Assembly (NCBI GenBank): GCA_016792625.1
Contig: JAEUKK010000123.1
Span: forward strand, 1-64,000
Length of the DNA stretch: 64,000 nucleotides
Source: Deltaproteobacteria bacterium
GTDB taxonomy: Bacteria > Myxococcota_A > UBA796 > UBA2385
Reading direction: 5' to 3'
Made by a program: the position numbers and the translations under genes. Shown here piece after piece: positions 20,393-55,180 of this stretch. Position 1 is the stretch's first letter. Each line of letters opens with the position of its first letter. Below the pieces are notes generated by a model. It had not been told where the DNA came from. It did no database searches and saw only the letters and a program-made list of their open reading frames with translations.

Positions 20393-21508
20393 TCAGCCCC
20401 CGGCCACCCGCAAGCTGTACTCCAGGTGGTCGTCGGCGCAGAACCAAGGCCGCACCAGCACGGTGTAGTCGCCGGCCACCGTGGCGTGGAGGCGGGCGGC
20501 GGGGCAGCGCGCGTCGCCGCTGCTGCAGTCGGCGCCGTCGTCGAGCTCATCGAGCAGGCAGCCGTCGGGGCCGGTGATCAACATCGCCGGATCGTCGCCG
20601 CGCCGGGCGCTGTCCAAGCCGAGCTCGACCACCGCCCCGGCCGCGAGCCGCAGCGTGTAGGCGTCGGCCAGCGGGATGGCCGCGCAGGGCACCGCGCCGT
20701 CGACGCCCGGCCCGGGGGGCAGCGCGGCGAGGCGGTCGAGGGGGCTGCGCGTGGCGCACTCGGCGTAGAGCAGCGGCTCGCCCCGGCCCCAGGGCCCGAT
20801 GGTCGCGGTCAGCGCGCCGGTGGCGGGGTCGAAGCGGTCCTCGCCGGTGCGGGCCTCGCCGTCCGCCGAGTAGAGGATCATCACCCCGCCCGGCCGCTCG
20901 CCGGTCAGGTAGCCGAGGCTGAGCAGCGCGTCGTAGCGCTCACCCCAGGGCTCCACGACGGCGTCCTCGTACCAGCTCATGCGGCCGGTCACCCCGGCGA
21001 AGTTGAGGCCGGTGAAGGGCTCGGCCCAGCCGCAGGTGGGCAGGCTATCGACCTCGGTCAGCGCGATCTGGTGGGTGTAGGCGGCGTTCTCTTCGAGCAG
21101 GTCGAGGTCGGGCGCGCCGGTGAGCGTGGTCTCGACCATGCAGCGGGGGCTGTCCTCCTCCTCGTCGAGCCACTCGCGGTACACAGCGTCGGCGACCACC
21201 CCCGTGGCGTCGACCGTGCCGGTCAGTGTCAGGCTCGACCAGAGGGTGCGCTCGAGGGCTGCGTCATCGGCGGCGAGGGTGGGCGCGGGGTCTGCATCGG
21301 CGTCGGCGTCCGCGTCGCTGTCCGCGTCGGCATCGGCGTCCGCATCGCTGTCCGCGTCGGCATCGGCGTCGCTGTCGGCCTCCTCCGCCGGTGCCGCGCT
21401 GTCTTTGGCCTCGGTGCAGGCGATGAGGCCGAAGAGCAGGGCCAGCGGGGCGAGCTTGGTGGAGGTGGGCAGGGCGGCAGGGCGCAGGGCGCGGAGGTCG
21501 AGCAGCAT
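20393..21508 (-). CDS. Lipoprotein with Asp-Ala linker and PPC-like C-terminus
   Basis: This 371-residue protein has a type II signal peptide ending in the lipobox LIAC. It is followed by about 30 residues of Asp alternating with Ala or Ser, an acidic flexible tether from the lipid anchor. The folded part contains several Cys residues and no family I recognise. The last 90 residues (YTLRLAAGAVVELGLDS to YSLRVAGG) look like a bacterial pre-peptidase C-terminal (PPC) beta-sandwich, with the motif of charged strand, Gly turn and final Y-S-L-R-V. It is convergent with groEL. The start at 21508 places the signal peptide correctly. Confidence 0.7.
   Translation of the reverse strand: MLLDLRALRPAALPTSTKLAPLALLFGLIACTEAKDSAAPAEEADSDADADADSDADADADADSDADADADADPAPTLAADDAALERTLWSSLTLTGTVDATGVVADAVYREWLDEEEDSPRCMVETTLTGAPDLDLLEENAAYTHQIALTEVDSLPTCGWAEPFTGLNFAGVTGRMSWYEDAVVEPWGERYDALLSLGYLTGERPGGVMILYSADGEARTGEDRFDPATGALTATIGPWGRGEPLLYAECATRSPLDRLAALPPGPGVDGAVPCAAIPLADAYTLRLAAGAVVELGLDSARRGDDPAMLITGPDGCLLDELDDGADCSSGDARCPAARLHATVAGDYTVLVRPWFCADDHLEYSLRVAGG
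21290..21379 (-). repeat. Asp-Ala/Asp-Ser coding repeat
   Basis: This is a run of GCGTCG/GCATCG/GCTGTC hexamers encoding about 30 residues of alternating Asp and Ala/Ser in the lipoprotein above. A very similar tract is found at 50378-50473 in another lipoprotein gene. Confidence 0.85.
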
Positions 21509-28369: not shown

Positions 28370-30285
28370 CCTTCGCCGATCCGGCCCGCCTGCAGCTCCT
28401 GTGGCTGCTGCTGCCTCTTCTCGGCTTCTTGGCATTGGTTTGGCGGGCCCGCCTGCGCGCCTTGGCCGCGCTGGGCGCCCTGCTTGGGGCCCGGGCCTCG
28501 ACCCACAGCCTGCGCAACCACCGCCTGCGCCTCGCTGCGGCGGCCCTCGCGGCGGGCCTGCTCATCTTCGCCCTGGCCGGCCCGCGGCTCGGCTTTCGAT
28601 GGCAGCAGGTCGTGCGCAAGGGCGTCGACATCGTCGTCCTGCTCGATGTGAGCCGCAGCATGGACGCCACCGACCTCAGCCCCAGCCGGATGGAGCGCGC
28701 GCGCCGCGAGCTGACCGATCTGACCGAGCTGCTGCGCGGAGATCGCGTCGGACTCGTTATCTTCGCCGGGGGCGCCTATCCCCGCCTGCCGCTGACCCTC
28801 GACTACGGCGTGCTGCGCTGGGCCGCCCGCGACAGCGCCACCTCGACCTTGTTGGCCCAAGGCAGCGATCTGGGCGCGGCGATCGACATGGGCGTGCAGC
28901 TCTTGGGCGGGGCCGAGGGTCTGGACGGAGGGGGCCCGGCGGACAAGGCCCTGATCATCCTCAGCGACGGGGAAGACCAAGAGGGAGAGGCCCGCGCCGC
29001 CGCCGAGCGCGCGGCGGCCGCGGGGGTCCGCATCTTTGCGCTGGGAGTCGGGACGCCGGAGGGCTCCCCTATCCCGCTGCCTGAGGGCGGTTTTAAGAAG
29101 GACGCGGGGGGTGAGGTGGTGCTCAGCCGCTTGGACGAGGGCCTGCTGACCGAGCTCGCGCGCATCGGGGGCGGCGCCTATGTGCGCTCGGCCGGTGGGA
29201 GCGCCGATATGCGCGCCATTTACGCCGACGAGCTGCGGGGCCGGCTCGACGGCGGGGCCGAGACCGCCACCGAAGAGAAGGTGTGGGACGAGCGCTTTCA
29301 ATGGCCGCTGGCCCTGGCCTTTGGCGCCCTGGTCGCCGCCTGCGCCCTGCCGCCGGGCCGCCTGCGCCTGCCCGGCCTCGCCCCCGGCCTGCTGTTCGGC
29401 GCTCTGCTGCTCGGGGGGCTCTCGGCCCGACCGCTGTGGGCGGCCGGCGAAGACGCCGCCGTGCAGTCACTTTTGCAAGAGCAGCTCGCCAAGCCCAACG
29501 ATCTGGGCGTGGCCGAGCGGCTGGGCGAGGCGCTCTATGCCGCGGGCCAGCACCGCCGCGCCCAAGAGGTTTTTGAGGGGGTCGCCGCCCGCAGCCCCGA
29601 CCCAGCCCAGCGGGCCCGCGCGGCCCATAACGCCGGCCTGAGCGCCTACAAAGGGGGTCGCCTGACCGCCGCCGAAGAGGCCTTCCGCCGCGCGGTGGAG
29701 CAGGCGCCGAGCGCGCAGGCCCAAAAGAACCTCGAGGCCGTGCAAAAGGAGATCGCGGCGCGCCTGTCCCAGCCCCCGCCGCAGCCCAAGCCGCCGCCCC
29801 AGCCGGGGGAGGAGGGCGAGGAGCAGCAGCCCCAGGACGGCCAACCCCAGGACGGCCAACCGCAGGAGGGCCAACCCCAGGACGGCCAGCCGCAGGAGGG
29901 CCAACCCCAGGACGGCCAGCCGCAGGAGGGGCAACCCCAGGACGGCCAACCCCAGGACGGCCAGCCGCAGGAGGGCCAACCCCAAGACGGCCAGCCCCAA
30001 GATGGCCAGCCCCAAGACGGTCGGCCCCAGAGCGGTGAGCCCGCCCGCCCGCACGACGGCACCCTTGACGGGGAGCGTGGAGCGCCACCTCCCGGCGCTG
30101 AGGGCAGCCCGCGCGAGCCCAGCGCTGACGACACGGGCGCGCCCCCAGGCGGGGCCGCCGCCGCCCCGGCCGCCGCCCCCGAGGGCATGTCCAAGGATGA
30201 GGCCGCCCGCCTCGTGGATAGTGTGCCTGAGGGCACTCCGCGCGTGCGGGCCAACCGCGACCGCGCGGCTGGGAGGGACTGGTGA
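28366..30285 (+). CDS. BatB/BatC fusion: VWA domain plus TPR and Gln/Pro-rich repeat
   Basis: This 639-residue protein joins what are often two genes. Residues 1-330 are BatB-like: two N-terminal hydrophobic segments, a VWA domain with DVSRSMDATDLSPSR, and a further hydrophobic segment (LALAFGALVAACALPPG) near 315. Around 350-460 there are tetratricopeptide-like helices (LGVAERLGEALYAAGQ, AHNAGLSAYKGGRLTAAEEAF) as in BatC. From about 465 it is low-complexity, including 14 near-identical five-residue Pro-Gln-(Asp/Glu)-Gly-Gln units. The C-terminus ends in RVRANRDRAAGRDW, like BatC tails. It overlaps the preceding and following genes by 4 bases. Confidence 0.85.
   Translation: MTFADPARLQLLWLLLPLLGFLALVWRARLRALAALGALLGARASTHSLRNHRLRLAAAALAAGLLIFALAGPRLGFRWQQVVRKGVDIVVLLDVSRSMDATDLSPSRMERARRELTDLTELLRGDRVGLVIFAGGAYPRLPLTLDYGVLRWAARDSATSTLLAQGSDLGAAIDMGVQLLGGAEGLDGGGPADKALIILSDGEDQEGEARAAAERAAAAGVRIFALGVGTPEGSPIPLPEGGFKKDAGGEVVLSRLDEGLLTELARIGGGAYVRSAGGSADMRAIYADELRGRLDGGAETATEEKVWDERFQWPLALAFGALVAACALPPGRLRLPGLAPGLLFGALLLGGLSARPLWAAGEDAAVQSLLQEQLAKPNDLGVAERLGEALYAAGQHRRAQEVFEGVAARSPDPAQRARAAHNAGLSAYKGGRLTAAEEAFRRAVEQAPSAQAQKNLEAVQKEIAARLSQPPPQPKPPPQPGEEGEEQQPQDGQPQDGQPQEGQPQDGQPQEGQPQDGQPQEGQPQDGQPQDGQPQEGQPQDGQPQDGQPQDGRPQSGEPARPHDGTLDGERGAPPPGAEGSPREPSADDTGAPPGGAAAAPAAAPEGMSKDEAARLVDSVPEGTPRVRANRDRAAGRDW
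29830..30039 (+). repeat. 15-bp coding tandem repeat, 14 units
   Basis: Fourteen consecutive 15-bp units encode PQDGQ or PQEGQ, with the last two diverging to PQDGR and PQSGE. Some neighbouring units are identical at the DNA level, so the copy number is probably variable between strains. Confidence 0.9.
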
Positions 30286-39059: not shown

Positions 39060-41435
<2,376 letters not shown>

Positions 41436-41484: not shown

Positions 41485-42336
41485 TCAACCGCGTACGTCG
41501 GGGACGGCGGGCAGCACGTCAATCCAGCCGTGCCCCGAGCTGAGGCCCCGCCCCAGGCCGAGGGCGGCGCAGATGGCCAACACGAGGGGCAGATCGCCCA
41601 GGGCGCCCTCGATCTCGATGTTCCCGACCACACCCCTTCGTCTGACCGGGTCGGCCCCGCGCAGCCCCCGCACCACCCCGTCGACCCGCCGCACCTGGGC
41701 CGCGCGCAGGCGGGCCGAGGGCCCCGGCGCCGCCAAGGCCCGACCGGGCCCGAGCCCATGCAGCCGCCGGACCCCGTCGATGCGGTGGGCCGCCGACGAG
41801 AACAGCTGCGCGGGCGTGGGGACCAGCGCGGGGCCGGGGTCACGATCAAGGCTGAGCGGAGAATGGAGCTGGAGGAGCAGCGGGCCCATGGGCGGCACCA
41901 CCACCTGGGTGGAGAGGGGGGCGCCGAGGTCGAGCGCCCACCCCGATAGGGCGTGCGGGACCTGGTCGCGGGTCAGCCCGACCCGCCCCACCTCGGCCCA
42001 GGTGTCAAAGAGCAGCGGCGCGGCGCGCTGCAGGCCCCCCTCGGGCGCACCCCAGAGGCGCCACTCGACGTCCACAGCGCGCACGAGCCCATCTTCACCA
42101 CGGTCGAGGCGCAGCCGCAGGGCCGAGCCGACCGCGTCGCTGCCCCGCGGGTCGAGCCAGCCGTCGACCAGGGCGGGCCAGCCGGCGGCCCGGGCCACCC
42201 GGCGGGCCTGCGTCTGCCACGCCCGGCGGAGCAGGTCGCCGGGGTGCGCCGGCGGGGCCCAGGGGCGCGCGGCCACGAGGCGCAGGCGGGCGGTGGTCTG
42301 GGCTAGGTCGCGCAGGCGGGGCGCGGGGCTGGTCAC
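41485..42336 (-). CDS. Cas6-family (PF10040-like) RNA-binding/endoribonuclease-like protein
   Basis: This 283-residue protein (GTG start at 42336) looks like a repeat-associated RAMP protein of the Cas6 C-terminal family. The middle segment LLLQLHSPLSLDRDPGPA, followed by LFSSAAHRIDGVRRLHG, matches the family pattern of a strand with T/S-P, charged loop and an arginine-rich helix. The C-terminus has VVGNIEIEGALGDLPLVL, then a helix and GLGRGLSSGHGWIDVLP. That is the Cas6 layout (VG-x-x-x-y-x-G, G-x-G/R-x-x-S/T-x-G-x-G). No CRISPR array, Cas1 or Cas3 is nearby. The catalytic His of Cas6 cannot be assigned by eye. A structural RNA-binding protein without nuclease activity is equally possible. 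Confidence 0.6.
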   Translation of the reverse strand: MTSPAPRLRDLAQTTARLRLVAARPWAPPAHPGDLLRRAWQTQARRVARAAGWPALVDGWLDPRGSDAVGSALRLRLDRGEDGLVRAVDVEWRLWGAPEGGLQRAAPLLFDTWAEVGRVGLTRDQVPHALSGWALDLGAPLSTQVVVPPMGPLLLQLHSPLSLDRDPGPALVPTPAQLFSSAAHRIDGVRRLHGLGPGRALAAPGPSARLRAAQVRRVDGVVRGLRGADPVRRRGVVGNIEIEGALGDLPLVLAICAALGLGRGLSSGHGWIDVLPAVPDVRG

Positions 42337-45392: not shown

Positions 45393-48361
<2,969 letters not shown>

Positions 48362-48371
<10 letters not shown>

Positions 48372-49888: not shown

Positions 49889-50575
49889 CTACTCGGCGAA
49901 GGCCTCGCAGATACCCCGGTCGACATAGGTCAGGTTCGTCGGGTCGGCGCTGCCGGTGGCCCAGACATAGTCGGTGCCCGGGTAGGTCATCTCGATCTCG
50001 CCGGTCTCGGCCGAGATGCCGTAGCTGCCGAAGAAGTTCTCGACCTCAACCGGGATGCGCGCGTCGCAGTCGCTCAGGCTGGCGTCGTAGGTGAAGTCGG
50101 CGGTGAAGCTCCACGCGCAGGTGGTGCAGAGCGTGGGCTCGTCGACGGTGCCGACCACCTGCCAGGCGTGCTGGCACTCGCTCATGCCCAGCGCCTGCCA
50201 GTCTTCGCTGGGGAAGACCGCTTGGTACTCGACGCCGGTCACCATGCCGCCGCTGATGTTGAGCTCGCCCACCTTCCACACGGTGGCCAGCTGGCTGCCC
50301 TCGGGCGGCACGTCGAGCGAGCAGATGTTGCGCTCGAGGCTGTCCCAGCTGGTGGGGCGGTCGACCGAGGGCTCGACGTCGGCGTCGGCGTCGGCGTCGC
50401 TGTCAGCGTCGGCGTCGGCGTCACTGTCGGCGTCTGCGTCGGCATCGGCGTCTGCGTCGGTGTCGGCGTCGGCCTCGCCGCCCGAGTCGGCGGTCTTGTC
50501 TTCGCCGCCGGCCTCGCCGTCGCAGGCGACCAAGGTCAAGCAGAGCAGGGGGAGGATGGCGGAGAGGGCGCGCAT
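49889..50575 (-). CDS. Lipoprotein with Asp-Ala linker
   Basis: This 228-residue protein has a signal peptide with lipobox LVAC, then about 33 residues of alternating Asp and Ala or Ser, and a C-terminal domain with six to eight Cys residues (ICSLDVPPEGSQLATVWKVGE, CTTCAWSFTADFTYD). I recognise no family in the domain. The linker is nearly identical in style to that of the lipoprotein at 20393-21508. A ribosome binding site (AGGAG) and a TAGGCT element precede it. It is convergent with the TPR glycosyltransferase gene. Confidence 0.7.
   Translation of the reverse strand: MRALSAILPLLCLTLVACDGEAGGEDKTADSGGEADADTDADADADADADSDADADADSDADADADVEPSVDRPTSWDSLERNICSLDVPPEGSQLATVWKVGELNISGGMVTGVEYQAVFPSEDWQALGMSECQHAWQVVGTVDEPTLCTTCAWSFTADFTYDASLSDCDARIPVEVENFFGSYGISAETGEIEMTYPGTDYVWATGSADPTNLTYVDRGICEAFAE
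50378..50473 (-). repeat. Asp-Ala/Asp-Ser coding repeat
   Basis: A tandem hexamer tract (GCGTCG, GCATCG, GCTGTC and similar) encodes alternating Asp and Ala/Ser. It resembles the tract at 21290-21379. Confidence 0.85.
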
Positions 50576-54643: not shown

Positions 54644-55180
54644 ATGACCTGCCGAACCGCCCTCCTCCCCCTGCTCGCCCTGCTCGGCTGCAATGAGGCC
54701 CCGCCGCCGGGCAGCGGCAAAGACGCGGTGATCACCGGCCACGCCAGCGCCGCCGCGGGTGACTTCGCGCGGGCGGCCTTCCCCTGCTGCGCCGACCCGG
54801 CCACCACCGCCGCGGTCGCCGGCACGATCACCTTGGGCGCGCGCCTCGCCGCCGATGACGCGGCGGGCAGCGCAGCGGCGGCGGCGGCCCTCCAGCCCCT
54901 GATCGCGGCGGCGCCGGCGGTGGCGGCGGCGGCCGCTCCGCTTGAGGCCCTGCGCGCAGCCCCCACCTTTGACGCCCAGCAGGGCGCTTTTGTCGCGGTC
55001 GCCGCTCCGGTGGTCGCCGCGGCCCGGGCCGGCGGGCCGGGCCCGCTGCAGGTGGCCGAGGTGCGCTGCCCGATGAAGCCGGGCTCTTGGCTGCAAGACC
55101 GCGAGCCGGTGGCCAACCCCTTCTACGGGGCGAAGATGTTGACCTGCGGGTCTTTTGTGCCGGGGGCGGCCAGCCCCTGA
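54644..55180 (+). CDS. Lipoprotein with DUF3347-like C-terminus
   Basis: This 178-residue protein begins with a signal peptide and lipobox LLGC. The central portion is Ala-rich helical. The C-terminal part, EVRCPMKPGSWLQDREPVANPFYGAKMLTCGSF, matches the CPM...W.Q....NPYFG..ML.CG motif seen at the end of DUF3347 and some CusB-like efflux periplasmic proteins, where the Cys and Met residues are proposed to bind Cu or Ag. A metal-binding periplasmic role is therefore plausible. It is convergent with the STAS-like gene, 10 bases apart. Confidence 0.65.
   Translation: MTCRTALLPLLALLGCNEAPPPGSGKDAVITGHASAAAGDFARAAFPCCADPATTAAVAGTITLGARLAADDAAGSAAAAAALQPLIAAAPAVAAAAAPLEALRAAPTFDAQQGAFVAVAAPVVAAARAGGPGPLQVAEVRCPMKPGSWLQDREPVANPFYGAKMLTCGSFVPGAASP

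Follow-up and report, generated by a model that had tools for sequence, protein, structure and literature searches.

A divergent Cas6-family protein in a deltaproteobacterial genome as a candidate trans-acting crRNA processor of a distant type III-B CRISPR system

The window, a 64,000-base stretch of a deltaproteobacterial draft genome (positions 1-64000 of contig C56, which is 95,396 bases long), contains a gene that, as judged from its sequence, encodes a genuine, divergent Cas6-family protein. We consider it somewhat probable that this is a type III-associated Cas6 that processes crRNA in trans and serves from afar a type III-B system encoded on contig C95. According to a recent classification (PMC12669027), a trans-encoded Cas6 is the usual arrangement for type III systems. 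The first-pass annotation had described the protein as an orphan, a reading that came from viewing a single window and that does not hold, as the partners lie on other contigs: the genome has Cas1 and carries both a full type I-B/MYXAN locus (contig C18) and a III-B operon with an array (C95). The gene and its conserved parts are as follows.

41485..42336, (-) strand: Cas6-family protein gene, GTG start, 283 aa (PF10040, PADLOC, reading frame and fold match)
41524..41874, (-) strand: PF10040 (CRISPR_Cas6) domain, residues 155-271 (Pfam match, found at the same place in the whole-genome profile search)
41527..41553, (-) strand: C-terminal glycine-rich loop, residues 262-270 (alignment of seven Cas6 relatives)

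The Cas6 identity first proposed by eye is borne out by profile searches. Residues 155-271 score 29.2 bits with Pfam PF10040, above its cut-off of 25 bits, three PADLOC Cas6 models match the protein (best 1.7e-13), and a PF10040 search of the whole genome returned it as the sole match. The suggested HMM check was positive in this part only, as the NCBIfam models gave no match; neither did a PDB sequence search, and the protein is thus a divergent member of the family. A protein search of genome contigs found no relative, and nothing in the phage records matched. The reading frame is intact across all 283 residues, without an internal stop, and its codon-position GC is coding-like. Although an extension of the frame upstream as far as 42645 is possible, the GC of the three codon positions in that stretch (0.65/0.81/0.93) is unlike that of the open reading frame (0.85/0.58/0.92) and of the neighboring kefB (0.79/0.51/0.91), so the extension lacks a coding-like codon bias.

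The C-terminal layout described earlier is present in full, namely H-S-P (residues 158-160), VGNIEIEGAL, and GLGRGLSSGHG. In an alignment of seven Cas6 relatives, G262, G268, and G270 are invariant, as in the glycine-rich loop of RAMP proteins. An AlphaFold model built from these seven sequences is weak, its pLDDT averaging 54; most of the N-terminal half falls below 50 and the C-terminal half is fair, yet its first eleven PDB fold matches are all Cas6, a family with a double ferredoxin-like fold. The protein shares with the PF10040 Cas6 family a C-terminal RAMP domain with a glycine-rich loop, and Cas6 structures head its fold search. It differs from the family in its divergence, including the empty NCBIfam search, in its missing residues, and in the location of its gene, far from arrays and cas genes. 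The Cys cluster of the Cas6 proteins from genomes G003 and G006 is missing, and the sequence contains neither Tyr nor Lys. Pyrococcus Cas6 uses a Tyr-His-Lys triad, which therefore cannot be complete here, and H31 is absent from the full-length relatives aligned. Cas6 active sites vary between members, so missing catalytic residues are no proof of inactivity. In a whole-protein tree, the branch of the window protein has a length of 1.69, versus 0.52 for that of G006. The long branch, the missing Cys cluster, and the lack of Tyr and Lys are as compatible with decay as with a changed role.

The genome (G000; 7.26 Mb) has two CRISPR-Cas systems with arrays, on C18 (79 repeats) and C95 (68 repeats), which answers the earlier call to look for arrays elsewhere. 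A pattern search for repeats ending in ATTGAA, run together with a search of selected stretches, found no further array with that repeat end. On C18, a complete type I-B/MYXAN operon encodes Cmx6, Cas3, Cas8b, Cas7, Cas5, Cas4-Cas1, and Cas2, and the array has the unit GTGCTCCTCCCGGTGATGCCGCAAGGCGTTGAGCAC. Cmx6 (199 aa, TIGR02807), the Cas6 of type I-MYXAN, is, like the window protein, a Cas6-type crRNA processor of this genome; unlike it, Cmx6 is matched by another Cas6 model and encoded within its own operon beside the array. On C95, the III-B operon encodes Cmr1 (identified by a PF03787 match and position), Cmr2/Cas10 with an intact GGDD motif, Cmr3, Cmr4, a 127-aa protein in the Cmr5 position, and a Cmr6 fusion. 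The C95 array consists of 68 copies of CCCGATCCCGGCGAACGAAGCCGGGCCCCATTGAAGC between 45.6 and 50.7 kb, reaching the contig end, and its repeat folds as a GC-rich stem (z -2.1).

It is very improbable that a binning mistake brought C56 together with CRISPR contigs of another organism. The draft assembly has 206 contigs and is 92% complete, which leaves some room for such an artefact, but contamination is 0.72%, GC content is similar (0.744, 0.727, and 0.735 for C56, the C95 flank, and the C18 flank), and tetranucleotide distances among these three (0.10-0.16) are smaller than those between C56 and relatives (0.23-0.28).

The first-pass annotation had added that a CRISPR locus elsewhere without its own Cas6 would make the protein an ordinary trans-acting one. 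The C95 locus fits this description in part: its Cmr operon lacks an internal cas6 gene, yet a Csb2-like Cas5-Cas6 is encoded between operon and array.

C95:42701-45235 (L012:2701-5235), (+) strand: Csb2-like Cas5-Cas6 fusion (type I-G), between the III-B operon and the array

This protein matches TIGR02165, the model of the type I-G Csb2/Cas5-Cas6 fusion, at 144.3 bits (cut-off, 45), and no further I-G effector genes were recognised adjoining its gene. Like the window protein, it is a candidate processor of the C95 array; it differs in being a fusion, in adjoining the array, and in being matched by different models. Just upstream of its gene, at C95:42419-42691, an 86-base unit (CTGGAGGTTGACCTGCGCGC...) occurs four times in tandem. 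With Cmx6 on C18 and the Csb2-like protein by the C95 array, the window Cas6 is the third processor of the genome, its job being either shared or lost.

A trans-acting role can be rationalized in three predicted steps. (i) The window Cas6 would bind the hairpin of the C95 repeat CCCGATCCCGGCGAACGAAGCCGGGCCCCATTGAAGC. (ii) It would cut 3' of this hairpin, leaving an 8-nt AUUGAAGC tag. (iii) The resulting crRNAs would enter the Cmr complex, with the window Cas6 acting beside or in place of the Csb2-like protein. Its activity, the repeat cut, and the service to the III-B complex are all predictions. Evidence against this role is that a candidate processor, the Csb2-like protein, already sits beside the array. 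A locus in genome G005 with Csb2, Cas4-Cas1, and Cas2 has a repeat that ends in ATTGAAGC, as the C95 repeat does, and the latter is thus of the kind paired with Csb2. We had considered the shared ATTGAAGC end of G000 and G005 as support for the action of the window Cas6 on the C95 array and rejected it, the G005 array being that of the Csb2 locus.

The main rival to the trans-acting reading is that the window gene is a leftover. It would have been the cas6 of a former III-B locus, made redundant when a Csb2-like Cas5-Cas6 and its array came to adjoin the Cmr operon, and its product would now be under weak constraint, with no essential RNA to process. The position of the fusion by the C95 array, the repeat end in common with the G005 Csb2 locus, and the long branch and missing residues of the window protein speak for it. 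Yet the 283-residue frame is intact with normal codon-position GC, and the C-terminal domain, invariant glycines included, is 51% identical to that of a relative from another genus, and we regard a leftover as unlikely. We hold it quite improbable that the protein lost crRNA cleavage and became a repeat-RNA binder or a non-CRISPR RNA factor, with the III-B crRNAs supplied by a borrowed I-G Csb2; if true, it would mean that a type III system swapped its Cas6 and the old one took another role. Three different Cas6-type processors occur in one genome, where a I-G Csb2 apparently serves a III-B array, so that the swapping of crRNA processors among CRISPR types becomes directly testable.

The relatives of the protein keep type III company. 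In genome G003, from the taxonomic family of the window, a PF10040 Cas6 gene overlaps a Cmr6 gene, and G006, from the same family, has a PF10040 Cas6 with six RAMP hits in the genome. Closest to the window protein is a fragment, cut off by a contig edge, from G005, a member of another genus (51% identity over 71 aa); its gene is convergent with a CARF-HEPN effector gene; a search for RAMPs in G005 at E <= 1e-5 gave no match. Trees pair the window protein with the G005 fragment (support 99/98) and, for whole proteins, join it to G006 Cas6 (93/89). RAMPs occur in five of six genomes with a PF10040 Cas6 versus 9 of 59 without PF10040, family f9 genomes being left out of the count; because genomes are not independent, the Fisher p of 0.0013 is indicative only. 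In G006 (L077:1-3299), the Cas6 gene is followed first by a 591-aa gene bearing a GMNF motif and then by the beginning of another gene, Cas6-like at its N-terminus. Pfam assigned no family to the last two. A relationship of the gene following cas6 to CorA was considered and rejected, as it relied on a GMN motif seen by eye, with Pfam and PADLOC empty.

Family f9 is different. Each of its six genomes encodes one stand-alone Cas6-like protein, and none has type III RAMPs.

L046:9127-10191, L048:1976-2986, L049:9175-10275: f9 Cas6-like genes
L050:9321-10226, L051:9175-10167, L053:1204-2289: the remaining three f9 Cas6-like genes

No cas genes were detected in the available flanks of these genes, whose products end in LGMGPGRQxGLG and which are often followed by two lipoprotein genes. 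In L046, one 7-copy repeat lies ~5 kb from the Cas6-like gene. The f9 proteins show that stand-alone Cas6-like proteins exist in this class, which lends some plausibility to the earlier suggestion that the window protein is domesticated and processes or binds a structured RNA unrelated to CRISPR. So does contig C56 itself: as the first-pass annotation had said of the window, there is no repeat-spacer array and no other cas gene was detected, and the same is true of the rest of the 95-kb contig. Nevertheless, the window protein falls outside the f9 clade, from which it is split at 100/100, the genome has two CRISPR systems, and kin sit with type III genes. Furthermore, searches of the window returned neither an Rfam family nor a significant copy of either repeat core (C95, C18); one match with 3 mismatches, at 54687, is at chance level (24 of 100 shuffles). 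Domestication of the window protein, for which no positive support was found, is improbable; as a candidate for a Cas6 that has been domesticated, the f9 family is stronger.

The next gene along encodes an antiporter.

39060..41435, (-) strand: KefB-type antiporter (Na_H_Exchanger, TrkA_N, TrkA_C; Pfam), 49 bases downstream of the cas6 stop

The gap agrees with what had been noted before. By analogy with type III membrane effectors such as CorA, Cas6 and KefB might form a functional pair, given their common strand, the 49-base gap, and the occurrence of membrane effectors in type III loci (PMC11229360). However, antiporter and RCK domains are all that KefB shows, apart from a DUF4118 below threshold, and PADLOC gave no match for it, so it has no recognisable CARF or SAVED sensor. 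Its relative in G009 (L029; 58% identical) has an unrelated divergent gene upstream and no cas6 at that position, which also counts against a domesticated Cas6 there. A functional pair is highly improbable, and KefB looks like an incidental neighbor. Elsewhere in the window, predicted lipoproteins or surface proteins with Asp-rich repeats (DADADSD, DxDxDGxxD runs) are encoded at 45393-48371, 20393-21508, and 49889-50575, and a 15-base tandem repeat at 29782-30051, inside an open reading frame, encodes a QPQDG/QPQEG-type run.

More surprising than the window Cas6 are the f9 family and the fusion at the end of the III-B operon, which has two further genes of interest close by.

C95:30675-33239 (L011:10675-13239), (-) strand: Cmr6 - SAVED - PNP_UDP_1 phosphorylase fusion, 854 aa, single frame, end of the III-B operon
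C95:29705-30622: DncV-like nucleotidyltransferase, beside the fusion
C95:27992-29197: TIR protein, near the fusion

The 854-aa protein resembles a type III subunit fused with a CBASS-type effector. No such fusion was found in the literature searched; the nearest precedent found is the rare NucC-Cas10 fusion (PMC11229360).
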